NCBI GenBank assembly: GCA_026415295.1
Contig: JAOAHJ010000008.1
Span: forward strand, 1-64,000
Length of the DNA: 64,000 bases
Source of the DNA: Spirochaetota bacterium
GTDB lineage: Bacteria > Spirochaetota > JAAYUW01 > JAOAHJ01
Direction of reading: 5' to 3'
In this document: piece after piece, positions 11,250 through 59,967 of the stretch
How positions within the stretch are numbered: position 1 is the stretch's first letter
How the letters are laid out: the number at the start of each line of letters is the position of its first letter
Position numbers and translations under genes: made by a program
Notes under the pieces: generated by a model
Told to the model about the DNA's origin: nothing
What the model saw: only the letters and a program-made list of their open reading frames with translations
Databases searched by the model: none

Positions 11250-11383
11250 AAAATTACCTCTAATTTTTAATTTCAAATAAAAATAATATATTATTAAGAA
11301 ATATATAATCAATTTAAACTATAATATAAATTTTTAATTTTTATATTTTTATTTTTAATTTAAATAATAAATTTTAATATATA

Positions 11384-39192: not shown

Positions 39193-39732
39193 TTATTCTC
39201 TTATAAAAATTTTTAATATTCTACCAACATACATTCTATGATAATCATTATTATTGTAATGTTTTTCAATTTCTGAATCCAAGAAGTTTTTATTATCTAA
39301 ATCTTGAAAATATATTTTCTCACATAAGAATAAAATTTTAGATTCTTCTACAAATGGAATTCTAATATTTTTAACAAAATTTAACTTATCTTCTACTGAA
39401 TAAAAATTTAAATTAAATTTACATTTATCAAACTTATTTTCTAATCTACCACTTTTCATTCCGCAATACTCAAGTTTGTCTTTAAAATTATCATCAAAAA
39501 AAGAAACAGAAAAAAAATTTGATTTCTCAAAAATGGTATATGTATATCTTGTAGGCCTTATAAATACATTCACAATAGGGTAATTCCATAATATTCCTAA
39601 ACTTAACCAACTTGCGGTCATACAATTATTATTTTTTTCATTTCCAACTACAATAAGTGCCCATTTATTATCTATATAATCAAAAACTTTAAAAGAAAAA
39701 TCGTAAAAATTAATTTCTTTAAACTTATCCAT
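39193..39732 (-). CDS. Flavin reductase-like FMN-binding protein
   Basis: A protein of about 179 residues with the split-barrel flavin reductase fold. ALIVVGNEKNNNCMTASW is the typical first FMN-binding segment, followed by RPTRYTYTIFEKSNFFSVSF and the EYCGMKSGR segment. Anaerobe members often act as flavoredoxin-like electron carriers. The start at 39732 has AAGGAG upstream; an in-frame TTG at 39750 is rejected. It leads a two-gene minus-strand unit with the radical SAM gene, for which it could supply electrons. Its upstream side is the long AT-rich gap with DnaA-box-like sequences. Confidence 0.85.
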   Translation of the reverse strand: MDKFKEINFYDFSFKVFDYIDNKWALIVVGNEKNNNCMTASWLSLGILWNYPIVNVFIRPTRYTYTIFEKSNFFSVSFFDDNFKDKLEYCGMKSGRLENKFDKCKFNLNFYSVEDKLNFVKNIRIPFVEESKILFLCEKIYFQDLDNKNFLDSEIEKHYNNNDYHRMYVGRILKIFIRE

Positions 39733-40195
39733 TTTTAACTCCTTTATCAAAAATTACATTATTTTTAAAAATTTACTAACAAATTAACAAAAAAAAAATA
39801 ATTTTATTCACAAACTTAACATTCATATTTTAATAATAAATATTATTTTTAAAAAAATTAAATTTTTGAAAAAATAAAATATTTAATGTGAATAAAAAAC
39901 AAAAATTTTCTATAAATAAATAACAATTTAAGTTATTTACAGTAAAAAAAATAATAAGAATTACAATAAATTGTTCATATTAATACTAATACAATCAATA
40001 AAAATAATTTGAAAAAAACATATACTTAAATATTCAATATAAAAAACTAAATTTAAAAAATTAATAATTATATGTATTTAAATATAAAAAATAAACTTAA
40101 TAAGATTAAAATTATTAAAAAATTAAGCTAAAAAATATAGTTGATTAATTTTATTTTAAGTATATAAATTTTTACAAAAAAATTAGGAGGTTAGA
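39733..40195. other. Candidate replication origin: gene-free AT-rich gap with DnaA-box-like sequences
   Basis: This 463-base divergent gap holds two perfect TTATTCACA sequences in inverted orientation, at 39804-39812 (+) and 39887-39895 (-, read as TGTGAATAA). Their flanks extend the inverted repeat to 11 bases (39802-39812 and 39887-39897). A near match, TTATTTACA, is at 39933-39941. TTATNCACA is the classical DnaA box. The remaining 250 bases are almost pure A/T, as an unwinding element would be. Leftward genes dominate to the left and rightward genes to the right, and mnmG-rsmG-parA-parB lies 2.6-6.8 kb downstream. It could instead be a DnaA-regulated promoter region; dnaA itself is not in the window. 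Confidence 0.45.
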
Positions 40196-42358
40196 ATGAT
40201 AATTTATGGATGGATAGGATCTATTCTTGCATTAATTTTTTCATTTTCACTTGTTATTTACCTTGATAAACAAGAATCTGGAAATGAAAAGATGGTCAAA
40301 ATTTCAAAAATAATACAAAATGGAGCTAAAACATACTTAACACAACAATATAAAGTAATTTTAATAGTTTTTATTTTTCTATCAGCTATACTATCTTATA
40401 TTTCTTTTTTCTTAAAATTATTATCACCTTTTGTACCATTTGCATTTATAACTGGTGGATTCTTTTCAGGTTTATCAGGATATATAGGTATGATGATTGC
40501 TACTAAATCTAATCAAAAAACAACTCAAGCTGCAAGAAAAAGTTTGAATAAAGGCTTAAGGATCGCTTTTTCAGCAGGCACTGTTATGGGAATGACTGTA
40601 GTTGGATTTGGACTACTTGATATTTCAATATGGTTTACTTTATTAAAATATGTTTTTAAAGTAGAAACTTTTGAAATACCATCTATTATGATTACTTTCG
40701 GTATGGGTGCATCTACAATGGCTCTATTTGCAAGATTAGGTGGAGGTATTTTTACAAAAGCAGCTGATGTAGGAGCTGATATTGTTGGTAAAGTTGAACA
40801 AGAAATTCCAGAAGATGATCCAAGAAATCCAGCTACTATTGCAGACAATGTGGGCGATAATGTAGGTGATGTTGCTGGTATGGGTGCAGATCTTTATGAA
40901 AGTTATGTGGGTTCAATTGTAGCTACAATGGCACTATCAGTTTTTGCTTTTAAAGATGTTGTTTTTATGATATTACCTATAATAATAGCTGGTATTGGAA
41001 TAATTCTTTCTATAATAGGAACATTTTTTGTACAAACAAAAGAAGATGCTAATCAATTAAATCTTTTAAGAGCTCTTAGGAGAGGTATTTATTTTTCTTC
41101 ATTCGGAATTGTTATACTTTCATTCTTATTCATATTTTATGTTATAGGAAAGCAATATTTAAACATATGGCTTTCAATGTGTTCAGGTTTATTAGCTGGA
41201 GTAATAATAGGTTATTTTACTGAATATTTCACTTCTGATAATTACAAACCGACAAAAGAATTATCTGAAAAGTCACAAACAGGAGCAGCAACTGTTATTA
41301 TAGATGGTATAGCTTTAGGTATGAGATCAACTGCAATACCTGTATTAACAGTTTCAATAACTATTATTTTAGCCTTTTTTATTGCAGGAGGGTCTAAAAG
41401 TGTAGCAAATGGATTATATGGAATTGGTATTGCAGCTGTAGGAATGTTATCTACACTCGGCATAACTCTTTCAACAGATGCTTATGGACCTATTGCTGAT
41501 AATGCTGGTGGAATTGCTGAAATGGCTGAACTTGGTGAAGAGGTGAGACATAGAACAGATAATCTTGATGCTTTAGGAAATACAACAGCTGCTACAGGGA
41601 AAGGTTTTGCTATAGGTTCAGCAGCATTAACTGCTCTTGTGCTTGTTGCTGAATATAAAAATAAGATAATAGAAAATTTGTCAATTGTAGCTTCAAAAGG
41701 ACCACTATTTTCGGACTATATAAAAAAATTTTTAGATAAAGCAGGTTATCAATGGAATAATAGTTTAAACGTTAACTTTCTTGATCCATTTATCGTTGTG
41801 GGTTTATTTATTGGAGCCTTAATGCCTTTCTTCTTTTCATCATTAACTTTAAGGGCAGTAGGTAGAACTGCACATCAAATGGTAAAGGAAATAAGAAGAC
41901 AATTTAAGGAAAAACCAGGTATATTAAAAGGAACTGAAGATCCAGATTATATTTCCTGTATTAAAATATCAACTATTGGAGCTCAAAAAGAAATGGTAAT
42001 TCCATCTTTAATTGCAATAATTGTTCCAGTATTAACTGGTATTATTTTAGGTCCATTAGCTGTAATTTCTTTATTAATTGGTTCATTAATTTCTGGTTTT
42101 ATTTTAGCCATAATGATGGCTAATTCTGGTGGAGCTTGGGACAATGCTAAAAAATTTATAGAAAAAGGCAATTTTGGAGGAAAGAATTCTGAACCACATA
42201 AAGCATCAATTGTTGGAGATACTGTAGGTGATCCATTTAAAGATACAGCTGGGCCTTCACTAAATATTTTGATAAAGTTAATGAATATGGTATCTATTGT
42301 TTTTGTTTCTGTTTCAATCTATTTAAATGCTATGATATCAAAAATTATATTTAAATAG
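40196..42358 (+). CDS. hppA: K+-dependent membrane-bound pyrophosphatase (cation-pumping)
   Basis: A 720-residue integral pyrophosphatase with about 16 helices that couples PPi hydrolysis to H+ or Na+ export. Active-site signatures are [34 protein letters not shown] and the C-terminal [14 protein letters not shown]. The [11 protein letters not shown] motif has Ala where K+-independent pumps have Lys, so it belongs to the K+-requiring class. The Glu in ADLYESYVG is at the position found in that class, many of which pump Na+. TAGGAGG precedes the ATG. PPi made or used by PPDK and biosynthesis ties it to central metabolism. Confidence 0.95.
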
Positions 42359-42571: not shown

Positions 42572-42573
42572 AT

Positions 42574-42682
42574 ACTGCACTTAAGGTAACCCAATGGTAA
42601 TTCTTTCTCAAACCCCGCCAGGTCCTGACGGAAGCAACGGTAGAGAATAGAGTTGCTGATTGGAAATTATCTTAAGTGCAGT
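42574..42682 (+). ncRNA. ffs: Signal recognition particle RNA, small bacterial (4.5S) type
   Basis: About 109 bases that fold into one long hairpin. ACTGCACTTAAGGTAA at 42574 pairs with TTATCTTAAGTGCAGT ending at 42682. The conserved helix 8 apex GCCAGGTCC-TGAC-GGAAGCAAC contains the Ffh-binding symmetric and asymmetric loops (CCAGG, GGAAGCA). The apical tetraloop is UGAC where most bacteria have GGAA or another GNRA-like loop. No Alu domain is present. A run of eight T (42682-42689) directly after the closing stem makes the RNA its own terminator. It follows tRNA-Ser by two bases and is probably released by tRNA 3' processing. Confidence 0.92.
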
Positions 42683-42801
42683 TTTTTTTAAATTAAAAAT
42701 ATTTAATTTTTAAATTTAAATATAATATAATATAAATAATATTTGCTTAATTAAATAATAAAAATATATAAATATTATTTATTTTAAAAGTAGGAGAAAT
42801 A

Positions 42802-44664
42802 ATGGATTATGATGTTATAGTTGTGGGTGGAGGTCATGCTGGAATTGAAGCTTCTTGGGCAGCGACTAATTTTGGATTAAAGACACTTTTAATTACATTA
42901 AATATTGATAATATAGGACAAATGTCATGTAATCCATCAATTGGTGGAATAGCAAAAGGGAATATAGTTAGAGAAATCGATGCTTTTTGTGGACTTATGC
43001 CAGAAATTGCTGATTTAACAGCAATTCAATTTAGAATGCTAAATACAAAAAAAGGACCTGCTGTTCAATCTTTAAGAGTTCAGTCAGATAAAATACAATA
43101 TATGAATGAAATTATAAAAAAGATTTTGTCTAGAGATAATCTATTTGTATACCAAGATGAGGTCATTGATTTAATTTTAGATGAAAATAAAAAAAAAGTT
43201 ATTGGTATAAAAACAAGAAGAGGTCTTCAAATTACTGCTAATGCAATTATATTAACTACTGGAACTTTTTTGAAAGGGAGAATATTTATAGGCGATTATA
43301 ATGGAGAAGGAGGAAGAATTGGAGAATATTCTGCAAATTATTTATCCGATTTTTTATTAAAAAATCAGTTTAGATTAATTAGATTAAAAACAGGAACTCC
43401 ACCGAGAGTTAATGGTAGATCTATAAATTTTAATAAAATGGAAGTACAAAAAGGAGATGAAAACCATGAATATTTTTCAATAGCCTCATATGTTAACAAA
43501 ATTAATAAATTACCTCAAATAGATTGTTATATAACTAGAACAAATGAAAATACTTCAAAAATTATTCTTGAAAATATAGATAAATTACCATTATACTCTG
43601 GGAAAATAAAAGGAATTGGGCCAAGATATTGTCCATCTTTTGAAGATAAAGTTATTAAATTTAAAGATAAAAGTTCTCATTTGATATTTGTTGAGAAAGA
43701 AAGTTTATTATCAAATATTTATTATTTAAATGGTATTTCAACATCTCTTGCAGAAGATCTGCAAATAAAATTACTCAGAACAATAGATGGTTTTGAAAAT
43801 ATTGAAATAATTAAGCCAGCTTATGCTGTTGAATATGATGCTATAGATCCAACATATCTTAAACCTACACTTGAAAGTAGAATAATTGAAAATTTATATT
43901 TTGCTGGCCAAATTAATGGTACTTCAGGTTATGAAGAAGCAGCTGGTCAGGGATTGGTTGCAGGTTTAAATGCTTCTTTAAAAATATTAAAAAAAGAACC
44001 ATACATATTTTCAAGATATAAATCGTATATTGGAGTAATGATAGATGATTTAACTACTAAAGGAATAGATGAGCCATATAGAATGTTTACCTCTAGAGCA
44101 GAATTTAGATTAAATTTAAGGTTTGATAATACTTTTGAAAGATTATATCCTGATGCTAGAACTTTAGGATTAAAAAAAGAAACACATGAACAATATTTTA
44201 ATAATTTTGTTAATCAAAAAAAGTTTTTTATTGAAAACTTTTTAGAAAGGAAATATAATAAAACTGATATTAGTGACTTTAATTTAGAAAAAAGTTTAAA
44301 TGAAATAAATCCTCCATATACCATAAAAAATTTAATTATTCAAGATGCTATTGATCTTGTTAAAAATAAAAAAAAGTTTATCAATATAGATGAGTATGTG
44401 TTAAAAAATATTCAAATTGAAAATAAATATAAAGGTTATATTGACCATGAAAATAAACTTATAGATGATTTAATGAAAAATGAAAATTTAAAAATTCCTT
44501 CAAATATTGATTATGATAAAATAGAAACTCTTTCAAAAGAAACAAAAGATAGATTAAAAAAAATAAAACCTGAAAATATTGGTCAAATGTCAAGAATAAA
44601 AGGAATAAAACAGACTGATCTATTAAATGTTTTAATTTATATTAAAAAGAAAAATAAAAATTGA
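42802..44664 (+). CDS. mnmG: tRNA uridine-5-carboxymethylaminomethyl(34) modification enzyme MnmG
   Basis: A 620-residue FAD protein that with MnmE installs cmnm5 or nm5 groups on wobble uridine 34. The N-terminal dinucleotide fold VVGGGHAGIEAS is followed by MSCNPSIGGIAKGNIVREID. Other hallmarks are LRTGTPPR-like RLKTGTPPRVNG, GIGPRYCPSFEDK, FAGQINGTSGYEEAAGQG and TSRAEFRLNLR. The C-terminal helical domain ends with QMSRIKGIKQTDLLNVL. AGGAGA precedes the ATG. It is the first gene of a mnmG-rsmG-parA-parB series, an arrangement often found near replication origins. Confidence 0.97.
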   Translation: MDYDVIVVGGGHAGIEASWAATNFGLKTLLITLNIDNIGQMSCNPSIGGIAKGNIVREIDAFCGLMPEIADLTAIQFRMLNTKKGPAVQSLRVQSDKIQYMNEIIKKILSRDNLFVYQDEVIDLILDENKKKVIGIKTRRGLQITANAIILTTGTFLKGRIFIGDYNGEGGRIGEYSANYLSDFLLKNQFRLIRLKTGTPPRVNGRSINFNKMEVQKGDENHEYFSIASYVNKINKLPQIDCYITRTNENTSKIILENIDKLPLYSGKIKGIGPRYCPSFEDKVIKFKDKSSHLIFVEKESLLSNIYYLNGISTSLAEDLQIKLLRTIDGFENIEIIKPAYAVEYDAIDPTYLKPTLESRIIENLYFAGQINGTSGYEEAAGQGLVAGLNASLKILKKEPYIFSRYKSYIGVMIDDLTTKGIDEPYRMFTSRAEFRLNLRFDNTFERLYPDARTLGLKKETHEQYFNNFVNQKKFFIENFLERKYNKTDISDFNLEKSLNEINPPYTIKNLIIQDAIDLVKNKKKFINIDEYVLKNIQIENKYKGYIDHENKLIDDLMKNENLKIPSNIDYDKIETLSKETKDRLKKIKPENIGQMSRIKGIKQTDLLNVLIYIKKKNKN

Positions 44665-44679
44665 AAAATTAAATAAAAA

Positions 44680-44695
44680 TGTTACACATGTAACA
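44680..44695. promoter_or_regulatory. parS-like centromere site
   Basis: TGTTACACATGTAACA matches the chromosomal parS consensus TGTTNCACGTGNAACA at all fixed positions except one central G, which is A here. The outer six bases are a perfect inverted repeat. It lies in the 32-base gap between mnmG and rsmG, one base before the rsmG ATG and about 0.65 kb before parA. ParB proteins load onto such sites as CTP-dependent clamps. The nearness to parA/parB strengthens the call; the single mismatch and only one copy seen weaken it. Confidence 0.6.
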
Positions 44696-44696
44696 T

Positions 44697-45344
44697 ATGG
44701 AATTGTTTTTAAAATTTGAAGATATTATTGATGGATTGTATAAAAAAAACATTGATAAATTTTTAGATTATTTAATTATAGAAAATAAAAAATATAATTT
44801 AACTTCTATTTTAAATAGAGAAGAAATGTATTATAAGCATATTCTAGACTCATTGGCAGGATATTTTTTAATGATTAAAATTTTTGGTGATACCATTTAT
44901 GGAAAAAAAATTGCTGATCTGGGGGCAGGGGCAGGTTTTCCATCAATACCTATTATTTTATATGACTCAAAATTACATTTCTATTTAATAGAATCAAATA
45001 ATAAAAAGTGTAACTTTTTAGAAAAAGTAAAAGATAATTTAAACCTAAATTATGTTGTAATAAATAAAAATTTTAAAGAGATTAAAGAACAAAAATTTGA
45101 TATTATACTTTTTAGAGCTCTTGATTCTATTCCAAATGTTATAAAAAACTCAAAAAATATTTATTCTAATGTAACTTTTATTTTTTCTTATAAGGGGAAA
45201 AAGTCTTCAATAAAAGAAGAGTTATATTGTTTGGACAAAAATAAAAAATTAAAAGATTTTATAAAAAAAATAGAAATTCATAATATTTATGGTATAAAAG
45301 AAGAGGAAAGAAATATTGTGGAGATATTATGGGAGAAATTATAA
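44697..45344 (+). CDS. rsmG: 16S rRNA (guanine-527-N7)-methyltransferase RsmG
   Basis: A 215-residue class I methyltransferase that makes m7G527 in 16S rRNA (GidB). The family opening NLTSILNREEMYYKHILDSL and the SAM-binding IADLGAGAGFPSIPI are clear. FKEIKEQKFDIILFRAL is the equivalent of the conserved VxARAL region, with Phe-Arg-Ala-Leu here. There is no Shine-Dalgarno; the preceding bases form the parS-like palindrome, so ParB binding there could in principle affect expression. The last 16 bases overlap parA. Confidence 0.95.
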   Translation: MELFLKFEDIIDGLYKKNIDKFLDYLIIENKKYNLTSILNREEMYYKHILDSLAGYFLMIKIFGDTIYGKKIADLGAGAGFPSIPIILYDSKLHFYLIESNNKKCNFLEKVKDNLNLNYVVINKNFKEIKEQKFDIILFRALDSIPNVIKNSKNIYSNVTFIFSYKGKKSSIKEELYCLDKNKKLKDFIKKIEIHNIYGIKEEERNIVEILWEKL

Positions 45345-46090
45345 CAATAGCTAACCAAAAGGGCGGTGTTGGTAAAACGACTACAGTTGTTAATTTGAGC
45401 TACTCTTTATCATTATTAAAAAAGAAAATTCTCGTTGTTGATCTTGATCCACAGGGTAATGCAACTTCTGGTTTTGGTATTAAATTGAAGGATGATAATT
45501 TAACAAGTTACAATGTAATAGTAGGAGATTGTTTAGTAAATGAAGCTATAATGAATATTGGTGTTCTTGACCTTTTACCAGCAAATATAAATCTTGCTGG
45601 TGCTTCAATTGAACTTTTGAATATTAATAATAGAGAGTATAAATTGAAAGAAGCATTAATTAAGATAAAAAATTCATATGATTATATTCTTATAGATACT
45701 CCTCCATCATTGGGTTTATTAACAATTAATGCACTCGTTGCTTCAGATTCATTTTTAATACCTGTGCAGTGTGAATATTATGCTTTAGAGGGGTTAACAC
45801 AACTTCTAAAAACAATTAAAATTGTTCAAGAAAGATACAATGGGGATTTAAAATTAAAAGGGGTTTTATTGACAATGTACGATCCAAGAACAAATCTTTC
45901 TAAACAAGTTAAAGATGAAGTATTAAATTATTTCGACAAGTTTGTATATCAAACTATTATTCCTAGAAATATAGCTCTTTCTGAGTCACCATCATTTGGT
46001 AAACCATGCTATGAATATGATCCTAAATCTAACGGAGCATTATCGTATTTAACTTTTGCTAAAGAGTTTCTTAATCCAGCAGTAAGTTAA
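45329..46090 (+). CDS. parA: Chromosome partitioning ATPase ParA (Soj)
   Basis: A 253-residue deviant-Walker ATPase. KGGVGKTTTVVNLS at about 11-24 has the signature first Lys. VVDLDPQGNATSGFG and YILIDTPPSLGLL give switch I and II. The short length without an N-terminal DNA-binding domain is that of chromosomal Soj/ParA. It binds DNA nonspecifically as an ATP dimer and is released by ParB, driving origin segregation. GGAG precedes the ATG, which overlaps rsmG by 16 bases. parB follows after 48 bases. Confidence 0.96.
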   Translation: MGEIITIANQKGGVGKTTTVVNLSYSLSLLKKKILVVDLDPQGNATSGFGIKLKDDNLTSYNVIVGDCLVNEAIMNIGVLDLLPANINLAGASIELLNINNREYKLKEALIKIKNSYDYILIDTPPSLGLLTINALVASDSFLIPVQCEYYALEGLTQLLKTIKIVQERYNGDLKLKGVLLTMYDPRTNLSKQVKDEVLNYFDKFVYQTIIPRNIALSESPSFGKPCYEYDPKSNGALSYLTFAKEFLNPAVS

Positions 46091-46138: not shown

Positions 46139-46996
46139 ATGGCTAAACAGGCATTGGGTAGGGGTTTGGATGCTTTATTTAATAATAATCCTTTAAATGT
46201 AGAAGAAGTAAAATCAAAAGAAAATATTAAGCTTATTCAAATTGATAAAATAGAAAGAAATCCAGATCAACCAAGGAAGTTTATTAATGATGAAGAAATA
46301 GAAAACTTAGCTAATTCGATAAAAGAAAAAGGAATATTGCAACCAATAATATTGGTACAAAAAAATGATAAATATATGATTGTAGCAGGTGAAAGAAGGT
46401 ATCTTGCTGCTAGAAAAGCTGGCCTTTCTGAAATACCTGCTATTATTAAAAATTTAACTGATAATGAAATTCTTGAAATTGCCCTAATAGAAAATTTGCA
46501 GAGGGAAGATTTAAATCCAATAGAAGAAGCTTATGCATTTAAGAATATTATTGAAAAAACTAATATGACACAAGAAGAGCTTTCTCAAAGAATTGGAAAG
46601 AGCAGAGTTTACATTACTAATTCTATGAGATTATTGCAATTGTCTTTTAAAGAAAGAGATAAAATTGTTTCAGGTAAAATCTCAAAGGGACATGCTATTG
46701 CTTTGCTATCAATTGAAAATGAATTAGATAGAGAAATTTTGATTAATGAAATTGAACAAAAAGGATTATCTGTTAGAGAAACTGAAAAATTAGTTAGAGA
46801 TTTTTTAAAAAGGGCTAATAAGGTGGAAAATAATAAAAATAATAAATTAAAAGAAAAGGATCCATTTATAAAGGAGATAGAAGAGAAGCTGTCTTATAAA
46901 TTTAATACAAAAGTATATATTAATGGGGACCTTACTAAAGGAAAAGTTATAATAGAATATTTTGATAGAAATGTATTAGATAAATTGATTAGTTAA
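46139..46996 (+). CDS. parB: Chromosome partitioning protein ParB (Spo0J)
   Basis: A 285-residue ParB. The N-terminal ALGRGLDALF tag is the ParA-stimulating segment. The CTP-binding and clamp motifs are present as NPDQPRK, GERRYLAARKAG and ENLQREDLNPIEEA. The helix-turn-helix is TQEELSQRIGKSRVYITNSMRLL, and SKGHAIALLSI follows. A charged linker leads to the C-terminal dimerisation domain, where GKVIIEYF is a clear strand. GGAG precedes the ATG. The parS-like site at 44680 is its probable nearby target. Confidence 0.96.
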   Translation: MAKQALGRGLDALFNNNPLNVEEVKSKENIKLIQIDKIERNPDQPRKFINDEEIENLANSIKEKGILQPIILVQKNDKYMIVAGERRYLAARKAGLSEIPAIIKNLTDNEILEIALIENLQREDLNPIEEAYAFKNIIEKTNMTQEELSQRIGKSRVYITNSMRLLQLSFKERDKIVSGKISKGHAIALLSIENELDREILINEIEQKGLSVRETEKLVRDFLKRANKVENNKNNKLKEKDPFIKEIEEKLSYKFNTKVYINGDLTKGKVIIEYFDRNVLDKLIS

Positions 46997-50329: not shown

Positions 50330-51481
50330 ATGAGATATTTATTTACTTCTGAATCTGTTGGCGAAGGACATCCAGATAAACTTTGTGATCAAATATCAGA
50401 TGCAGTACTTGATGAAGCTTTAAGGCAAGATCCAAAGGCAAGAGTTGCTTGTGAAGTTATGGCAACAAATGGTGTTATCATTATTGGTGGTGAAATGACT
50501 GTTGATGGTTACATTGATATACAATCTGTAGCAAGAGGGGTTATTAAATCAATAGGTTATACTGATCCTGACTATGGTCTTGATTATAAATCATGTGGAA
50601 TTTTATTAAATATAAATTCGCAATCTCAAGATATAGCTATTGGTGTAGATGAAGATCCAACAAAAAATAAAGATATAGGTGCTGGTGACCAAGGAATGAT
50701 GTTTGGTTATGCATGTGATGAGACACCTGAATTAATGCCAGCGCCTATAATGTTTGCACATAAGATTATGTTAAAGGCAGCTGAAGTAAGGAAATGTGGT
50801 GTTCTCCCTTTCTTAAGACCTGATGGTAAATGTCAAGTTACTGTAGAATATGATGGAGAAAAGATTAAAAGGATACATACAGTAGTTCTGTCTCATCAAC
50901 ATGATGAAGATGTTCCTTATGCTACTTTAAAAAATGAATTAATAGAAAAAGTTATTAAAGAAGCTCTTCCTAAAGAATTGTTTGATGATAAGACTATTTA
51001 TTATATTAATCCTACAGGAAGATTTGTTATTGGAGGCCCTCAAGGAGATACTGGTTTAACAGGAAGAAAGATAGTTGTAGACACTTACGGGGGTATGGGT
51101 AGAGTTGGTGGGGGAGCTTTTTCAGGAAAAGATCCTACAAAAGTTGATAGATCTGCTGCATATATGGCAAGATATATAGCTAAAAATATAGTTGCAGCAA
51201 AAATTGCTAGGAAATGTGAAATTGAACTTGCTTATGCAATAGGAATATCACATCCTGTTTCAATTAATATTAATTTTTTTGGTACAGGAAATATTTCTGA
51301 AGAAAAAGTTGAGAAAATTATTCCAGATATATTTCCATTAACTCCACATGGTATTATAGATTATTTAGATTTAAGAAAACCGATTTATAAAGAAACAGCA
51401 ACTTATGGTCATTTTGGAAGGTCTAAATTTAACTGGGAAAAAACCGATAAAGTAGATGAATTATTAAAAAAATTAAAGTAA
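50330..51481 (+). CDS. metK: S-adenosylmethionine synthetase
   Basis: A 383-residue enzyme making S-adenosylmethionine from methionine and ATP. The opening [20 protein letters not shown] carries the ATP-site His. [16 protein letters not shown] is the first hallmark hexapeptide region, and [19 protein letters not shown] is the second, with the phosphate-binding loop. The 383-residue length is normal. GGAGGT precedes the ATG with good spacing. SAM made here serves the RsmG, DNA methylase and radical SAM proteins of the window. It stands as a single-gene unit. Confidence 0.97.
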
Positions 51482-51641
51482 ATTTTTAAAAAGAAGATAA
51501 GTTTTATTTATTAGTAAAATTTATATTAAAAATTTACAATAATTAAATTTGTAATTATTATAAATTTTTCTAATTATTTTTATTTTATATGTTATAGTGA
51601 TTATAAGGTTGAGAAGATAATAAATATTTAAGGTAGAGATA

Positions 51642-53510
51642 ATGAAAAAGAAAAATGGTAAAGGAAATTTAAAAGAGAGTTTAGAGCTTGAACAAAAGGC
51701 GTTACTAAATATTAATGAAAAAGATGATAAAAAAACTGAAAATGATGTTTCTAAAATGAAAGTAAAAAGTAAGAAAAAAGAGAAAAAAATAGAAACGATA
51801 AATAAAAATGATTATTTTTCGAGACTAAAATATTATTGTGAAAAGAAGAGTTTAAAAAATCATTTCTGGAAACAGATTTACAATATTGTATCAACAAAAA
51901 ATGATTATAATTCTTTGGAATTATGGGAACAAAAATTATTTGACTCAGCAATAAAAAAAAGAAATAGAGCTATAAACAGAAGAATATTTTATTATATTTT
52001 TCAAGGTTTAATTTTATCATATTTTTTTGTTAAAATAACATTGATTGATCAAAAATTTTTGGATTTATCTTTCGGTCTTGTTACTCCAGGGATTCAATAT
52101 TTTTTAATTGTAGCTTTAGGTGTTATTTTTAGTTTTTTTGAATTTAGATTAGGTGAATATGAAACATTTTCTCTTTCTTTTATGGTCCCATATATATTAA
52201 TTATTCTTTATAATCCTTTTTTTGCAATGCTAGGTATAGCATTTATTTTTTTAATAAAAACTATTAGAACATATATAAAAGATTATAAAGAAGATAGAAG
52301 CTTAATTAATTTAAGATATTATTTTAATACTTTTGGTGGTTTTTTACTTGATATTTCTCCATATTTCATAATTACCATATTTGTCAACTATTATATTCAT
52401 AAATTTATTCATAATATCTATGAATTTACTTTTATTAATCTTTTCTTTTTTATAGTTATGTTTTTTATATCTGCTTTAATTCAAACATTTTGGGTGCTTT
52501 TTTTTATTTCAACTGTAGGCTATAACATTAGAAAACTAATAAATTCTTCAATATTTGCTGGTATTTTTATAGATGTAATTAACTGTTTATTAGGAATGGT
52601 TTTTATTCTTTTTATTAGAACCTATCATTATTCTGGATTTCTTTTAATATTTATTATTCTCTTTGGAGTTAATCTTGCTTTGTTAAAGCTAACTGATTTA
52701 ACAAATCAAAATATAAAGGCAAAAAAGGAAATAGAAGAGGAAAGATTAAAATTTAGAAAAGCATTACAGGAAGTATCTATTATTTCAGATAAAATATTAA
52801 ATTTGATGGATAAAAGTAAGAAAAACTCATCTAAAATTGATGAAGTTATTTATAACTATGAATCTGAATTTAAAAATACTAAAAATTTAATTGATAGTAT
52901 AAATGAAAGACTTTCTTTTTTATCTAAGAATTTAAATTCATTAAAAGATAAACTTGGATCAGTTTTTGATAAAATAGAAAACTCTTCTGATATTTTGATG
53001 AGCTTTAATGAAATATTCAATAGTTTAAATAAAACATTTGAAGAAATGCAGGAATCTCTTTTATTGATAGATGATATTTCAGAACAAACAACTTTGCTTG
53101 CTTTAAATGCTTCAATAGAAGCAGCAAGAACTGGAGAAGCAGGTAAAGGTTTTTCAGTTATAGCTGGTGAAATTAGAAAATTAGCTGAAAAATCAAGTTC
53201 TACAACTTCTAATATTTATGAAAATATTAAGTTAACTCTTGATGAATTAAAGAAATCTATTCAAATACAAGTAAAACTAAATGATACTTTTTTTACTCTT
53301 CAAAATGAGGTAAGTGGTTTTGATATTTATTTTGATCAGATTTATGTTAATACTGAAAATATACAAGAGAATACAAAAAATTTAGTTGGTAAACTTGATA
53401 GTTTTCTCAAAATAGCTTATGATTTTAATTCTTTAGCTGGGCAATTTAGAACTTTATTTAATGAAATAAAAGTTGAACTTGATTCAATTAAGAATATTAT
53501 GAGAGCTTAA
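51642..53510 (+). CDS. Chemoreceptor-like protein with multiple membrane helices
   Basis: A 622-residue protein. Residues 1-100 are charged and cytoplasmic. Residues about 105-365 contain seven or eight hydrophobic helices with short loops, and there is no large periplasmic sensor domain. A coiled coil follows, with a methyl-accepting signalling tip at about 470-520: [20 protein letters not shown] and [18 protein letters not shown]. The signalling helices are short compared with standard receptors, and candidate methylation sites are not obvious. The membrane part might sense the membrane or an ion gradient, or bind a small ligand in the bilayer. No che genes are nearby. AGGTAGAG precedes the ATG. 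Confidence 0.85.
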
Positions 53511-53677
53511 TTTATAAAATATTAACAAATAAAAAAATATTTCTATTAATGTTATAATATTTAGAAATTGAATATTAATGTTTCAATATTATTAAGAATT
53601 AAATAATATTTTTGTTAAAATTATTCAATTTTAATTTCTATTTAATTCATAATTATTTCTCTTAATAAATATTTACC

Positions 53678-53703
53678 TTGACAAAATATTATTAAAGTAT
53701 AAT
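53678..53703 (+). promoter_or_regulatory. Probable promoter of the rpsF operon
   Basis: TTGACA (53678-53683) and TATAAT (53698-53703) are both perfect hexamers but only 14 bases apart, shorter than the usual 16-18. The expected start near 53710 coincides with the first bases of the structured leader. Confidence 0.6.
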
Positions 53704-53709
53704 CTTTTT

Positions 53710-53779
53710 TAACCTCTTATCCCTTAAGTGAGATATAATAACTTGGGGTTAAGGGATCAAAAGACCATGGGAGGTAATA
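53710..53779 (+). promoter_or_regulatory. Structured rpsF 5' leader, candidate ribosomal protein autoregulatory element
   Basis: A perfect 9-base stem joins ATCCCTTAA (53719-53727) and TTAAGGGAT (53749-53757). An outer helix pairs ACCTC (53712-53716) with GAGGT (53771-53775), which is the core of the rpsF Shine-Dalgarno. Between the helices is a very asymmetric internal loop, two bases on one side and 13 (CAAAAGACCATGG) on the other. rpsF leaders in many bacteria contain an S6:S18-binding motif recognised through a CCG bulge. Here an ACC in the large loop is the nearest equivalent, so membership is only a candidate. Folding would block translation of rpsF. Confidence 0.55.
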
Positions 53780-54208
53780 ATGTTTAATGCTTATGAAATG
53801 TTAGTTGTTTATTCTTTAAAGGAGGCTTCAAGACTTGATAGTTTCAAAGAAGAAACTAGGAAAATATTTAAAGAAAATGGTTTTGAGATTTCTAAAGAAG
53901 AGGAGATGGGGAAAAAGATCCTAGCATATCCCATCAATAAAGAAAAAGAAGGCTATTACTATCTTTTTTATCTTAAGAATTCAAAAGAAGCAAATTATCA
54001 AGATTTGCACAAACAGATTAAAAGAAGAGATTTTATTTTAAGGTATTTAATGCTTGGGGTTGATGAATCTAAGATTCAAAAGTTAAAAAAGAAAGAAGAA
54101 GAATTTAAAAATCTTAAAATTGAGATTAGGAAAAAGAAAATGCAAAAAGAACAGGAATCTAAAAGTAATCAATCACAAGAAAATAAGGTAGAAGAAAATT
54201 TAAATTAA
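53780..54208 (+). CDS. rpsF: 30S ribosomal protein S6
   Basis: A 142-residue S6. It begins with YEMLVVYSLKE, the usual first strand, and contains EEMGKKILAYPINKEKEGYY and KQIKRRDFILRYLMLGVDE, the S18-binding face. A Lys/Glu/Gln-rich tail of about 45 residues extends beyond the standard core of about 95. GGGAGGT precedes the ATG and lies in the leader helix. It heads the rpsF-ssb-rpsR-DUF2232-rplI-dnaB cluster. Confidence 0.95.
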   Translation: MFNAYEMLVVYSLKEASRLDSFKEETRKIFKENGFEISKEEEMGKKILAYPINKEKEGYYYLFYLKNSKEANYQDLHKQIKRRDFILRYLMLGVDESKIQKLKKKEEEFKNLKIEIRKKKMQKEQESKSNQSQENKVEENLN

Positions 54209-54220
54209 AAGGAATCATTT

Positions 54221-54757
54221 ATGAGTTTTGATTTTATAAATTTGGTTATAAGTGGAAGATTAACAAGAGACCCTGAGATAAAAAAGATAGATAATCCAAA
54301 TGGCCAGTTAAATATTATGAGATTTACGATTGCAAATAATTTTAAAAGAAGAGAAAATGAAGCTAATTATTTTGATTGTGAATTCTGGTTTAGAGATATT
54401 TCAAATTATTTTTATGACAGATTAAAAAAAGGAACATTTGTTGTATTGAATGGTTATTTAAGGCATGATAGATGGACATCTAAAATTGATCAAACTCAAA
54501 AAAATCGAATAATAATAGTTGTTACAAATATTTTAAGTCTTGTAACTAAGGATAATAATAGAGTGAATGATGGTTTCGAGAAAAAAGATGTTAAAAATGG
54601 TATTTCTGAGAAAATTTTAGATTCAACCAAGGTAAATAATTTTTCTGATAATTATGATAATATTGATCACAATATAGAAGAGTTCAGTGATTATGGAGGT
54701 GAAGATCCAGAGTTTGAAAACTATAATTCTTTCGATGAACCAAATAATTTTTCATAA
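54221..54757 (+). CDS. ssb: Single-stranded DNA-binding protein
   Basis: A 178-residue SSB with one OB fold. LVISGRLTRDPEIKKI is the first strand pair, and FDCEFWFRD and GTFVVLNGYLRHDRW follow. The flexible C-terminal part is acidic, but the protein ends DEPNNFS and not the common DDDIPF-like tip that recruits partner proteins. The position between rpsF and rpsR supports the assignment over other OB-fold proteins. GGAA precedes the ATG. Confidence 0.9.
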   Translation: MSFDFINLVISGRLTRDPEIKKIDNPNGQLNIMRFTIANNFKRRENEANYFDCEFWFRDISNYFYDRLKKGTFVVLNGYLRHDRWTSKIDQTQKNRIIIVVTNILSLVTKDNNRVNDGFEKKDVKNGISEKILDSTKVNNFSDNYDNIDHNIEEFSDYGGEDPEFENYNSFDEPNNFS

Positions 54758-54827
54758 TGTAAAAAGTTAAGTCTTATTAGTAAAAATTAATTTTTTAAAA
54801 ACATTAATAAGATAATTGGAGGAAAAT

Positions 54828-55076
54828 ATGATGGATAAAATAGACTTAGAAAATAAAAGAACAAGGTTTTTGTTAAAAAAGAAGGTTTGTAGATTTTGTA
54901 CAGATGGAATTTTTTATATTGATTATAAGGATGTTAATTTATTAAATAAATATATAATGAGTAATGGTAAAATTTTACCACGAAGAATAACTGGTACATG
55001 CGCTAAACATCAAAGACTAGTATCTCTTGCAATTAAAAAAGCAAGACATGTTGCTCTTTTACCTTATAAAAAATAA
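54828..55076 (+). CDS. rpsR: 30S ribosomal protein S18
   Basis: An 82-residue S18. The core contains [36 protein letters not shown] and [24 protein letters not shown], all highly conserved. The Cys-x-x-Cys and Cys-x-x-His pairs suggest a zinc-binding form. The start is the ATG at 54828 (or the next codon, 54831), with TTGGAGGA just upstream; an in-frame TTG inside that ribosome-binding site is not a start. It binds S6 on the platform of the 30S subunit. Confidence 0.95.
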
Positions 55077-55188
55077 AGAGTTAAATTAGTAATAATTTAG
55101 TCAAAATTAATTTTTAATTTTCAATTTAGAAAAAGAGATAGTTAATGGTGTGATTAATTAGTATGCTTTATTAAATTAAATTAAAAAT

Positions 55189-56166
55189 ATGTTTAGTAAA
55201 AAAAATGAAATAAAAAGGTTAAATTTTTTATCAATTTTATTTTACTTTTTAATTCCTATTTTTTCTATAGGTCCTTTTGTTAAGTTATTTAAAAATAGTG
55301 GTTTTAAAAAAGGATTGTTGGTAAATTTATTTTATTTTTTAACTTTTGATTTTATATTAAAAGTATTAATTTTTTTATTTTCATTAAAAGATTTAGAAAT
55401 ATTATTAATACAAGTCTTTTTTGATTTTATATTTTACTTAGTTTTTGTAGTGTTAATAGGTATTTTTGTTTTTAATATTATAGAGAATAAAAAATTTGGT
55501 AATTTATTAAAGATTTTATTAATTTCAATATTTCCACTGGTATTTTTAATATTAATATTTTTTATAAAAGATAATTTTTTAAATGAAATTATTCTATCAA
55601 ATTTTTACAAAATATTTGATTTACAAGATAGTTTAAAATTAAATAAAAATTTTATTTTAGAAATTACTGAAAATTTAAAGTTTTTAATAAATTATGTATA
55701 TCCAAAAATTATTTTACCATTTTCTTTAATTACTGGTTATTTAATTTATCAGAATGTTTTATTTTATAATTTTTATGAAAATAAAGTAACAATTTCAAAT
55801 ATTAATTTAAATAATTTTTTTTCTTGGTTATTCTTAGTATTTTTATATATATTTATTTTTATCGTTTTTATAATTAAACAAAAATATATTATTTTAGAAA
55901 ATATAGTTTACAATCTATTTTTTGGATTTACAATACTATTTTTTTTTCAAGGATTGGGTGTTATTTTTTATAGATTAGAAAATAGTAAGTATGATTTAAA
56001 ATTTATTAAAAATATTAAAGTTCTGTTTTTTTGTATTTATGTTTTGCTTATTATTTCCAGTATTTATTTATTTATTATTTTATTTTTTTTAATTTCTTGC
56101 CTTGGAATTCTTGAAAATGTTTTTAAATGGAGAAATAAATTAATTACTACAGGAGGAGATAAATGA
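55189..56166 (+). CDS. DUF2232 (YybS-like) membrane protein
   Basis: A 325-residue, strongly hydrophobic protein with about eight membrane helices and very high Phe, Leu and Ile content. Sequence similarity is hard to judge by eye. Its place between rpsR and rplI, where DUF2232/YybS proteins are commonly encoded, is the main support. Its function is unknown in other bacteria too. There is no ribosome-binding site before the ATG. It overlaps rplI by four bases (ATGA), indicating coupled translation. The first helix begins after a short basic N-terminus. Confidence 0.6.
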   Translation: MFSKKNEIKRLNFLSILFYFLIPIFSIGPFVKLFKNSGFKKGLLVNLFYFLTFDFILKVLIFLFSLKDLEILLIQVFFDFIFYLVFVVLIGIFVFNIIENKKFGNLLKILLISIFPLVFLILIFFIKDNFLNEIILSNFYKIFDLQDSLKLNKNFILEITENLKFLINYVYPKIILPFSLITGYLIYQNVLFYNFYENKVTISNINLNNFFSWLFLVFLYIFIFIVFIIKQKYIILENIVYNLFFGFTILFFFQGLGVIFYRLENSKYDLKFIKNIKVLFFCIYVLLIISSIYLFIILFFLISCLGILENVFKWRNKLITTGGDK

Positions 56167-56723
56167 AAATAATTTTATTGAAAGATGTTGAAAACTTAGG
56201 TCTAGAAGGAGAAATTAAAGAGGTAAAAAATGGTTATGCTAGAAATTATTTGCTTCCAAATGGGTATGCTATTGAAGCTACAGATAATAATATCAAGAAT
56301 TTGCAAATAAAATTAAAAAAATTGGAAGAAATTAGAAAAAAAAGGCTTGCTACTGCTTCTGAGAAAAAAGAGATGCTTGAAAATATTCATGTTATAATAA
56401 AAGCTAAGGTTGGAGAAAAAGGCAAATTATATGGCTCAGTAACTACGAGTGAAATAGCTGAATTTATTAAAAATTCTGGTTATACAGAAATAGATAAAAA
56501 GGATATAAGGATTCCCCATATTAAGGAAGTAGGAGAATATATAGCTTCTGTAAAAATAATAGAGGGTATTACTGCAAATGTAAAAATAAAAGTTGAAGGA
56601 GAAGTTGTAAAAGAAGAAACAAAGGAAGAAAAAAAAGATTTTAAGGGTAAAAGAAAGACTTACTCAAAAAATTTTAATAGAAAAAGTAATAAAGAATCAG
56701 ATAATAAAAATAAAGAAGAATAG
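56163..56723 (+). CDS. rplI: 50S ribosomal protein L9
   Basis: A 186-residue L9. The N-terminal domain MKIILLKDVENLGLEGEIKE followed by VKNGYARNYLLPNGYAIEAT is diagnostic. A long connecting helix (about 40-75) leads to the C-terminal domain with KLYGSVTTSEIAEFI and VKIIEGITANVKIKV. Residues beyond 150 form a Lys/Glu/Asn-rich tail longer than in typical L9 (about 150). AGGAGGAG precedes the ATG. It overlaps the previous gene and lies 3 bases before dnaB. Confidence 0.96.
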   Translation: MKIILLKDVENLGLEGEIKEVKNGYARNYLLPNGYAIEATDNNIKNLQIKLKKLEEIRKKRLATASEKKEMLENIHVIIKAKVGEKGKLYGSVTTSEIAEFIKNSGYTEIDKKDIRIPHIKEVGEYIASVKIIEGITANVKIKVEGEVVKEETKEEKKDFKGKRKTYSKNFNRKSNKESDNKNKEE

Positions 56724-56726
56724 AAT

Positions 56727-58079
56727 ATGTTAAAAGTACCCCCATATTCTGAAGATGCGGAGAAAGCTGTACTTGGAATTTTATTAACTGATTCAGAAAA
56801 AATATATGATTTAATTTATTACCTTGATGAGGAAGATTTTTATCTTCCTCATCATAAAGTTATAATAAGAATTATTAAAAATTTAGCAATAAAAAACAAA
56901 GCTATAGATATTCTTACAGTTTCACAGGATTTAAAAGAGAATAATTTGCTTGATAAAGCACTGGGTATTGATTACTTAACTTCATTAACTGAAATAGTTC
57001 CTACAACATCTAATTTTTCTACATATTTTGATATATTAAAAGACAAATCATTAAGAAGGAATATAATATCTTTATCAAATCAAATAATATCTGAGGCTTA
57101 TGATCTTTCTACAGAAACAAAAGTTTTAATTGATAAAATTGAATCAGAAATATTAAAACTTACTGAAATAGATTATAAAGATAAATTTATTATTTTAAAA
57201 GAACTACTATTAAGAATTATTGATGATATTGAAACAAGAATAAAAAACAATGTCAAATATACGGGTCTGCAAACTGGATTTAAATTACTCGATGAATTAA
57301 CTTCTGGTTTTGAAAAAGGTAAGCTTATAGTTATTGCAGCAAGACCTTCAATGGGTAAGACAACTTTTGCCTTAAACCTTGCTGCTAATATGGCTTTATA
57401 CTTTGATTATAATGTTGGTTTTTTTTCTTTAGAGATGCCAGCAACTGATTTAGGTTATAAAATTATATCTCAGGTAACTAAAATACCCTATGAAAATATA
57501 AAAAGAGGTATATTACAATATTCCCAGATGCACGATTTAATTGAGAAGATATCTTCTATATATATAAAAAATTTGATATTTGATGATACTTCTAATGTAA
57601 GTTCTTTTGATATTAAACAAAAAGCAAGAAGATTAAAGATTAAAAAAAATATCGATATTATTTTTATTGATTATCTCCAGATTATATCTCCACCTAGAGG
57701 TGTACAACATGATAATAGAAATGTAATTATTGGGGAGATTTCAAAAAGTTTAAAAATTCTTGCAAAAGAGCTTGATATACCAATTGTTGTTTTATCTCAA
57801 CTATCAAGACAAGTTGAAAGAAGAGAAGATAAAAGACCACTTTTGTCTGATTTAAGAGAATCTGGTGCAATCGAACAAGATGCTGATATTGTTGCTTTTT
57901 TACATAGAGAAGATTATTACAAAAAAAAAGATAAAAATAAAGAAAACGAAGAAATTAAAACTAGAAATATAACTGAATTAATAATTGAAAAACATAGAAA
58001 TGGTCGAAAAGGTAAAATTTTATTTGAATTTTTTCCGGAATATTCACTTTTTAAAGAACTTGAACATGAAATTGTTTAA
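56727..58079 (+). CDS. dnaB: Replicative DNA helicase DnaB
   Basis: A 450-residue hexameric helicase that unwinds DNA at the replication fork. The N-terminal domain opens PPYSEDAEKAVLGILL. The RecA-like domain has Walker A ARPSMGKTTFALN, GFFSLEMPATDL, Walker B IDIIFIDYLQII, VVLSQLSRQVERREDKRPLL and DLRESGAIEQDAD. EKHRNGRKGKI is the arginine-finger region. No intein is present, although helicases often carry one. It starts 3 bases after rplI. The ribosome-binding site is weak, so coupling is likely. Confidence 0.97.
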   Translation: MLKVPPYSEDAEKAVLGILLTDSEKIYDLIYYLDEEDFYLPHHKVIIRIIKNLAIKNKAIDILTVSQDLKENNLLDKALGIDYLTSLTEIVPTTSNFSTYFDILKDKSLRRNIISLSNQIISEAYDLSTETKVLIDKIESEILKLTEIDYKDKFIILKELLLRIIDDIETRIKNNVKYTGLQTGFKLLDELTSGFEKGKLIVIAARPSMGKTTFALNLAANMALYFDYNVGFFSLEMPATDLGYKIISQVTKIPYENIKRGILQYSQMHDLIEKISSIYIKNLIFDDTSNVSSFDIKQKARRLKIKKNIDIIFIDYLQIISPPRGVQHDNRNVIIGEISKSLKILAKELDIPIVVLSQLSRQVERREDKRPLLSDLRESGAIEQDADIVAFLHREDYYKKKDKNKENEEIKTRNITELIIEKHRNGRKGKILFEFFPEYSLFKELEHEIV

Positions 58080-58094
58080 TTAAATATATTTATT

Positions 58095-59900
58095 ATGGTA
58101 GAAAAGAGGAAAAATACTTTTTTCTTGTTATTTATAGTTTATTCATTGATATATTTTTTTATCCTTTTTATATTTTATAAAATAAATAACTATAAAGAAA
58201 TTATTTCTTATTTAATAGTGCTTGATGAAATATTTTTTATAATTTTTATATTGCTTGAAATCGAAAGATTTATTTATTTTAGTAGAGTATATAAAATAAT
58301 TGAGTATGATTTTATAAAGAAAATTTCAAATTTTATTAATCTTTTTTTTCTTTTTTTAAAAGAAAATTTTATAAACTATATTATAGTTATTTTTTTTACT
58401 ATTATTTTTCACAAGATAGGTGATCAATTTAATTTAAATTTTCAAAATCTTTTTTGGAAAAACTTATATATATTGTTGAAACAAATTATACTATTATTAG
58501 TTTTTTTTGTATTGAGAGCTTATTATTTAGATTTTTTTGTTAAAATTAAACTTAAAACTAATCAGATAATCGTTATTGGGTTTTTGTTTTTAATTTTTTT
58601 CGGAGCTTTTTTACTTATTCAAAATTTTTCAATTAAAAACGAAATTAGTTTTGTTGATGCTCTATTTATGTCTACCTCTGCTGTTTGTGTAACAGGATTA
58701 GCAGTGAAAAGTGTATCTAATGATTTTTCAAATATTGGAAAAGTTATCCTATTATTTTTAATGCAGATAGGTGGTTTAGGAATAATGTTCCTTTATGCTT
58801 CAATTGTTAATTTGCTACCTGAAAAAGTTTCATTGAAAACTTATATTTATACTCATGAGGCTTATGATGTTTCAACTAACAGAATCAATGTAAATTTAAT
58901 TTTTAGGTTTATTTTTATTTATACTTTTTTTATAGAATTAATAGGTTTTATTTTATTTTTCATTAAGTTTTATTTTTTATTTAATAATTTTGCTAAGTCA
59001 GTCAAATATTCTTTGTTTCATTCTATATCAGCATTTTGTAATGCAGGTTTGTCTTTGTTTGACAATTCTTTTGAAAATTTTTACAATGACACATATATTA
59101 ACTTAACATTAATTTTTTTAATAACAGCAGGAGGTATAGGTTTTTATGTTGGCTATGATATTTTAAGAGTTTTAATGAATAGGATTAAAATTAAATATGA
59201 TAAAAAAAGCAAAATTAAAAACAAAATTTACTTAACTTCTCAAAGTAAACTTGTTTTGTTTTTTTATCTTATATTAAATATTTTTGGTGCTATTTTATTT
59301 TTTATAATAGAAAAAGATAATAGCTTAGCCAAATTTAACTTAAAAGATAAAATATTAGCTTCACTTTTCCAAGTTGTAACATCAAGAACTGCGGGATTTA
59401 ACACAGTTCCTATTGGAGGATTAAGAGTTACCAGTTTAATAATATTATGTATCCTTATGTTTATAGGTACAGCATCTGGATCTACAGGAGGGGGAATAAA
59501 AGTTTCTACATTTGGAGTTATTATTTATACTTTTGTTTCTTATATTAAAAATAGTAATATTATAAGATTTCATAAGAATAGAAGAATAAGAAATATTACT
59601 GTAAGAAAGGCTTTTTCACTTTTTTTTGCTCAGATATCATTTATTGTTCTTTGGATTATTATTTTAACATATATTGAAAACTTTAGAGAAATTAATATAA
59701 TTTTTGAAACTTTTAGTGCTTTTGGGACAGTTGGACTTTCAACAGGAATAACTACTAAGTTAAAAGACATTTCAAAAATATTTATTATTATTGCCATGTT
59801 TATTGGGAGAATTGGGCCATTAACTTTAGTATCTGCTATGAGCAGGGAAGAAAGAACTGTTCAATATAATTTACCACCTGCTGATATTAATATAGGTTAA
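58095..59900 (+). CDS. TrkH/KtrB-family K+ uptake protein, membrane subunit
   Basis: A 601-residue potassium transporter. An N-terminal extension of about four helices (residues 1-165) precedes the four M1-P-M2 repeats. Selectivity loops visible include SAVCVTGLAV, AFCNAGLSLF, TSRTAGFNTV and AFGTVGLSTG, each with the central Gly. GSTGGGIKVST is the conserved gate segment in the third repeat. It pairs with the TrkA/KtrA-like gene 67 bases downstream. There is no ribosome-binding site before the ATG. The extension is longer than in KtrB, and the function could be Na+-linked. Confidence 0.92.
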   Translation: MVEKRKNTFFLLFIVYSLIYFFILFIFYKINNYKEIISYLIVLDEIFFIIFILLEIERFIYFSRVYKIIEYDFIKKISNFINLFFLFLKENFINYIIVIFFTIIFHKIGDQFNLNFQNLFWKNLYILLKQIILLLVFFVLRAYYLDFFVKIKLKTNQIIVIGFLFLIFFGAFLLIQNFSIKNEISFVDALFMSTSAVCVTGLAVKSVSNDFSNIGKVILLFLMQIGGLGIMFLYASIVNLLPEKVSLKTYIYTHEAYDVSTNRINVNLIFRFIFIYTFFIELIGFILFFIKFYFLFNNFAKSVKYSLFHSISAFCNAGLSLFDNSFENFYNDTYINLTLIFLITAGGIGFYVGYDILRVLMNRIKIKYDKKSKIKNKIYLTSQSKLVLFFYLILNIFGAILFFIIEKDNSLAKFNLKDKILASLFQVVTSRTAGFNTVPIGGLRVTSLIILCILMFIGTASGSTGGGIKVSTFGVIIYTFVSYIKNSNIIRFHKNRRIRNITVRKAFSLFFAQISFIVLWIIILTYIENFREINIIFETFSAFGTVGLSTGITTKLKDISKIFIIIAMFIGRIGPLTLVSAMSREERTVQYNLPPADINIG

Positions 59901-59967
59901 ACTTTTTTAAGTATATTAAAAAATATATTTATATTAAATAATTAATAAAAAGAAATTTGAGGTATTT

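Follow-up and report, generated by a model that had tools for sequence, protein, structure and literature searches.

We propose that a divergent intergenic gap in a Spirochaetota genome is very probably the bidirectional origin of replication (oriC) of its chromosome. An origin far from dnaA, as this one would be, is unusual, yet such origins are already known in Spirochaetota. The DNA analysed belongs to contig C8 (114 kb) of a draft MAG of 2.1 Mb in 39 unordered contigs, and the window is its first 64 kb. An earlier note had suggested oriC in a 463-base divergent gap, apparently away from dnaA, and our results support this placement. The gap is indeed divergent, and it measures 445 bp if the ORF of the flavin-reductase-like protein starts at the TTG at 39750, as assumed here. 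The features of the gap and of the genes on either side are as follows.

39193-39750, minus strand: flavin-reductase-like protein, first leading-strand gene left of the gap (PF01613, 1.1e-7)
39751-40195, no strand: candidate oriC, divergent intergenic gap (445 bp, 90% AT)
39804-39812, plus strand: DnaA box TTATTCACA, exact match, left arm of a convergent pair
39813-39886, no strand: AT-rich spacer between the boxes, putative unwinding region, holding the AT-only run 39825-39867
39887-39895, minus strand: DnaA box TTATTCACA, exact match, right arm of the convergent pair
39933-39941, plus strand: weak DnaA box TTATTTACA, one mismatch
40196-42358, plus strand: membrane H+-pyrophosphatase, first leading-strand gene right of the gap (PF03030, 4e-269)
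42802-44664, plus strand: mnmG (gidA), part of the ancestral origin cluster (PF01134, 1.1e-151)
44680-44695, no strand: parS-like near-palindrome TGTTACACATGTAACA at the mnmG-rsmG junction, the only exact copy in the genome
44697-45344, plus strand: rsmG (gidB) (TIGR00138, 1.6e-36, above cut-off)
45329-46090, plus strand: parA, chromosome partition ATPase (ParA-family matches; 62-63% identical to the gene of G001 and G003, of the same order)
46139-46996, plus strand: parB, Spo0J/Noc-like (TIGR00180, 1.3e-52, above cut-off)

The strand composition of C8 switches in the gap. For this, every G or C at a third codon position or in intergenic DNA was counted, with plus-strand genes, minus-strand genes and intergenic DNA treated separately, so that gene direction alone cannot create a switch. 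On C8, covered by the window and further stretches of the contig, the best single change-point was at 40,047 (2-log-unit interval 39,992-40,186; log-likelihood gain 131); with coding positions only, it was at 40,579 (interval 39,739-41,833). The third-position GC skew of plus-strand genes was −0.18 at 14-39.9 kb and +0.35 at 39.9-70 kb. In minus-strand genes it went from −0.38 to +0.20, and the intergenic skew went from −0.46 to +0.26. The switch was found separately in the plus-strand genes and in the intergenic DNA, and the minus-strand genes are compatible with it. Since the sign changes in the genes of both strands, gene direction alone is no explanation. A change from negative to positive is the polarity of an origin with a G-rich leading strand, as is usual, and it is independent of the orientation of the contig. 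The strand-bias switch that had been counted by hand is therefore real, and the skew minimum expected at 39.7-40.2 kb is present; given that the contigs are unordered and most were sampled in part, this minimum is that of C8 and not of a genome-wide cumulative curve. The gene directions are also as had been described, most genes left of the gap pointing left and almost all to its right pointing right. The other contigs, most of them sampled only in part, had a skew of one sign or near zero, with no comparable sign change. At the left end of C8 (1-8300), the third-position skew of plus-strand genes is near zero (−0.01), compared with −0.18 at 14-40 kb, and a minor change-point (gain 15) at about 8.35 kb perhaps marks a recent rearrangement.

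The boxes themselves are where they had been reported: two exact copies of TTATTCACA in opposite directions and a near match, TTATTTACA. The exact copies form a convergent pair, 83 bp apart start to start, and the left one is part of an 11-bp arm, TTTTATTCACA, at 39802-39812. The weak box at 39933 is not significant by itself. The gap thus carries a DnaA-box cluster, as is looked for in a bacterial oriC, with two exact boxes and one weak box, few in number. Both TTATNCACA sites of the window lie in the gap, and 3.2 are expected in the window; their concentration is therefore raised, but the raw count is not enriched. We simulated the 445-bp gap by Markov models built either from the gap or from the whole intergenic DNA of the window (3,000 trials). 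The simulated gaps held 0.013-0.036 TTATNCACA sites each, and two or more occurred in 0-0.0003 of the trials (0 to 0.03%). The boxes are rarer in ordinary intergenic DNA, and equal frequency there would have spoken against an origin. The genome as a whole contains 76 TTATNCACA sites. Seven neighbouring pairs lie within 400 bp and an eighth at 551 bp, and the pair in the gap is the only convergent one (plus, then minus) within 600 bp. About 0.06 convergent pairs within 83 bp are expected by chance genome-wide. It is improbable that two convergent exact boxes came together in one gap by chance. The box type, TTATTCACA, is that of all three boxes upstream of dnaA in the same genome. Elsewhere, two tandem TTATTCACA boxes 160 bp apart (C6:51557 and C6:51717) lie beside a KDO-transferase gene, which is followed by the primosome gene priA.

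The gap does contain a long AT-only stretch, as had been claimed, but the stretch is not special. Its 43 bases make it the longest in the gap and among the longest in the window, and longer runs exist outside the gap (for example, 66 bases at 11320). Only one 400-bp stretch of the window is less stable than that of the gap, and several other gaps are equally AT-rich. Given that longer AT-only runs occur elsewhere and that long runs of this kind are common in the genome, the stretch is supportive but does not alone single out the gap. Folded as single-stranded DNA, the inverted boxes with their spacer do somewhat better than shuffled sequences (z −2.7). This is because the arms are inverted, and we gave it no weight. 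A DnaA-trio or basal unwinding motif next to a box is common in oriC but not obligatory. Using the DnaA-trio motif of PMC8287927, we found no array above chance beside the boxes of the gap; the longest runs, of 2-3 trios, are the chance level in such AT-rich DNA.

We considered whether the true origin lies within a few kilobases in another gap, such as the one immediately before mnmG (42,572-42,801), in which case the pair at 39.8 kb would have a different function, such as regulating the pyrophosphatase or the flavin-reductase gene. This gap at 42.6 kb has AT-only runs of 63 and 43 bases and is among the least stable 100-bp stretches, and the oriC of Escherichia coli adjoins mnmG. In addition, a change-point can miss by kilobases, as in the relative G001 described below. 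However, the gap at 42.6 kb has no exact TTATNCACA and lies outside both the all-position and the coding-only interval, and the pyrophosphatase gene already has the third-position skew of a leading strand. We consider a displaced origin of this kind unlikely, and the gap at 39751-40195 remains our candidate.

The candidate gap lies 5-6 kb from parAB (45.3-47.0 kb) and the parS-like site at 44,680, and the single parB of the genome (E <= 1e-25) is the one found here. Origin-proximal parAB and parS are common in bacterial oriC, though not obligatory. We compared three genomes of the same order (G001, G002 and G003), all of which have a parS-like site at the same position, TGTTACACGTGAAACA in G001 and G002 and TGTTTCACGTGTAACA in G003, one mismatch from canonical parS. 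A search of the genome for canonical parS with up to three mismatches showed no enrichment over the control, so only the conserved mnmG-rsmG position carries weight. The genes mnmG, rsmG, parA, parB and lipoate ligase have the same order and direction in C8 and in the same-order relatives. This conserved order indicates that the block is part of the ancestral origin cluster, kept together with the switch. The flanking genes that were scanned included no recognisable replication initiator. The origin of a plasmid or secondary replicon was rejected on gene content, the flanks carrying mnmG, rsmG, metK, rpsF and dnaB.

In the relatives, the origin cluster is classical. The order in G001 is dnaA, gap, dnaN, recF, a small gene, gyrB and gyrA, then mnmG, rsmG, parA, parB and lipoate ligase (recF and gyrBA named by position and similarity), and dnaA is about 11-12 kb from mnmG in G001 and G003. 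The skew switch is at or next to dnaA-dnaN in G002 and G003; the change-point of G001 (50,922-59,906) overshoots the dnaA-dnaN gap by at least 1.7 kb, so that errors of kilobases do occur with this method. As to the conservation of the boxes, which the earlier note had named as a check, G003 has the same convergent TTATTCACA pair in its dnaA-dnaN gap, with starts 90 bp apart compared with 83 bp in C8; the dnaA-dnaN gap of G001 has one exact and one degenerate box and that of G002 has degenerate boxes only. The origin gaps of G001 and G003 align strongly with each other (0/200 shuffles), and the C8 gap aligned with neither beyond chance. Given that the paired boxes are common to them but the gap is unalignable, what is shared is a layout and not detectable sequence homology. 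The C8 candidate thus resembles the classical origin of the relatives in its TTATTCACA pair (convergent in G003, degenerate in G001), its AT-rich gap, the skew switch at or near it, and the mnmG-parS-parAB order downstream. It differs in that dnaA and dnaN, which flank the origin in the relatives, are both elsewhere. In G001 (C8:31226-31363) and G002 (C10:5610-5745), two to three tandem TTATNCACA sites lie just upstream of a SPOUT methyltransferase gene (rlmH-like), possibly as a conserved DnaA-responsive promoter or a DnaA-titrating site; none was found near a similar gene on C7 of the Spirochaetota MAG.

A false skew switch could also arise from the assembly, if C8 joins two unrelated contigs within the AT-rich gap. 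The genome is a draft MAG of 39 contigs, the gap is 90% AT, and the genes to its left are not neighbours of the origin in the relatives. However, the LUD gene (36,308) and the pyrophosphatase gene (40,196), which in G001 and G003 sit side by side on a contig separate from that of the origin, lie here on opposite sides of the gap. This indicates a rearranged but real neighbourhood and argues against a chimeric join. The right side carries mnmG-parAB and the parS-like site, which are origin-proximal in the relatives, and a misjoin would have had to hit by chance the sole convergent DnaA-box pair of the genome. An artefact of assembly is hence very improbable.

The initiator gene and its usual neighbour are on other contigs.

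C23:42,359-43,741: dnaA, the only full-length DnaA gene of the genome, with ATPase and C-terminal box-binding domains
C39:129,671-130,750: dnaN, on a third contig

Neither gene adjoins the candidate gap, as one of them does in an origin of the dnaA-dnaN type; dnaN is followed at the end of C39 by recF, a small gene, gyrB and gyrA. The skew of C23 (217 kb) is negative throughout, without a switch. Its sign places the origin beyond the right end of C23. The distance from dnaA to the switch would then be at least about 213 kb, made up of 173 kb on C23 and 40 kb on C8, a lower bound that follows from the skew signs and assumes one circular chromosome. Three exact TTATTCACA boxes in the same direction lie within 163 bp directly upstream of dnaA (C23:43823-43985) and form the densest box cluster in the genome. 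The earlier note had regarded a denser cluster at dnaA as evidence against its reading. Such a cluster formally exists, and the two strong boxes of the gap are fewer than these three, although C23 has no skew switch. A box cluster ahead of dnaA usually points to DnaA autoregulation, and with one skew sign over 217 kb the cluster on C23 is better read as a promoter than as an origin. It is likely a dnaA promoter autoregulated by DnaA. The spaces downstream of dnaA (about 14 bp to the next gene) and upstream of dnaN (about 84 bp) leave no origin-sized gap on the side where the relatives have their origin. In spite of its box cluster, an origin at dnaA is therefore the least credible of these alternatives, with no strand-bias switch anywhere on C23 and a likely promoter role for the boxes.

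Origins unlinked to dnaA were also found elsewhere. In G027, a complete chromosome of another Spirochaetota family, the skew, sampled around the circle, is negative before it becomes positive in the interval from about 760 to 875 kb, and it returns to negative between 2.01 and 2.2 Mb. Fine mapping placed the switch at 799,662 (799,623-800,169; gain 670), where parA-parB begins (799,480-801,121; parA named from its sequence and parB from a family search). Thus G027, like C8, has a skew-defined origin by parAB and far from dnaA (874 kb), but its mnmG lies far off, and its switch showed no TTATNCACA pair. A general rule that the origins of spirochaetes follow parB was not established; parB lies hundreds of kilobases from dnaA in several complete genomes with unmapped origins. 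The pyrophosphatase gene, 24 kb from the origin of G027, was rejected as an origin marker, as its loci in other genomes had no comparable opposite-sign switch (boundaries unfitted). The oriC of E. coli lies between mnmG/gidA and mioC, tens of kilobases from dnaA. The C8 gap is likewise near mnmG-rsmG and not at dnaA. However, the E. coli oriC directly adjoins mnmG and contains numerous boxes together with IHF and Fis sites, whereas in C8 the pyrophosphatase gene and a tRNA lie between the gap and mnmG, and there are only two strong boxes. The origins of Brachyspira intermedia and B. pilosicoli, determined by skew and Ori-Finder, are stated to be unlinked to dnaA (PMC3163572, PMC3532143), which corrects an earlier dnaA-based placement (PMC2897892). 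Brachyspira is, like the C8 genome, an AT-rich spirochaete, but the genes at its origin reportedly differ from species to species. DoriC further includes an origin from a cyanobacterium that is remote from both dnaA and dnaN (PMC6323995).

Taken as an origin, the C8 gap is most likely an ordinary DnaA-dependent bidirectional one, with few boxes and with DnaA made elsewhere. The DnaA protein, whose gene is at least about 213 kb distant, would attach to both convergent TTATTCACA boxes, and possibly also to the weak box. It would then assemble over the very AT-rich spacer and its flanks, open the duplex and load DnaB. Forks leaving in both directions would produce the G-rich leading strand and the outward-facing genes on both sides, and ParB bound at the parS-like site close by would separate the daughter origins. 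The lineage seems to have broken up the classical dnaA-dnaN cluster and kept an origin beside mnmG-parAB. The dnaA-oriC-dnaN-recF-gyrBA-mnmG-parAB cluster, kept in the same-order relatives, would have been split by rearrangement, leaving dnaA and dnaN-recF-gyrBA elsewhere and an origin of the same paired-box layout beside mnmG-parAB. It is also possible, though less likely than not, that the origin is not a displaced ancestral sequence but arose anew at the rearrangement junction, as a minimal site of two convergent boxes in AT-rich DNA captured beside parS-parAB, after dnaA and dnaN had left.

These results correct the habit of placing the origin at dnaA. They add two cases, the C8 genome and G027, to the published Brachyspira origins that are unlinked to dnaA in Spirochaetota. 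They also provide a before-and-after comparison within one order, in which the classical cluster of the relatives is set against a dismantled one that kept the paired-box layout and the parS-parAB neighbourhood. If the origin of C8 did arise anew, spirochaetes may have founded new origins repeatedly, as in the C8 genome, G027 and Brachyspira. The phylum would then offer a natural series showing how few elements suffice to establish a chromosome origin.
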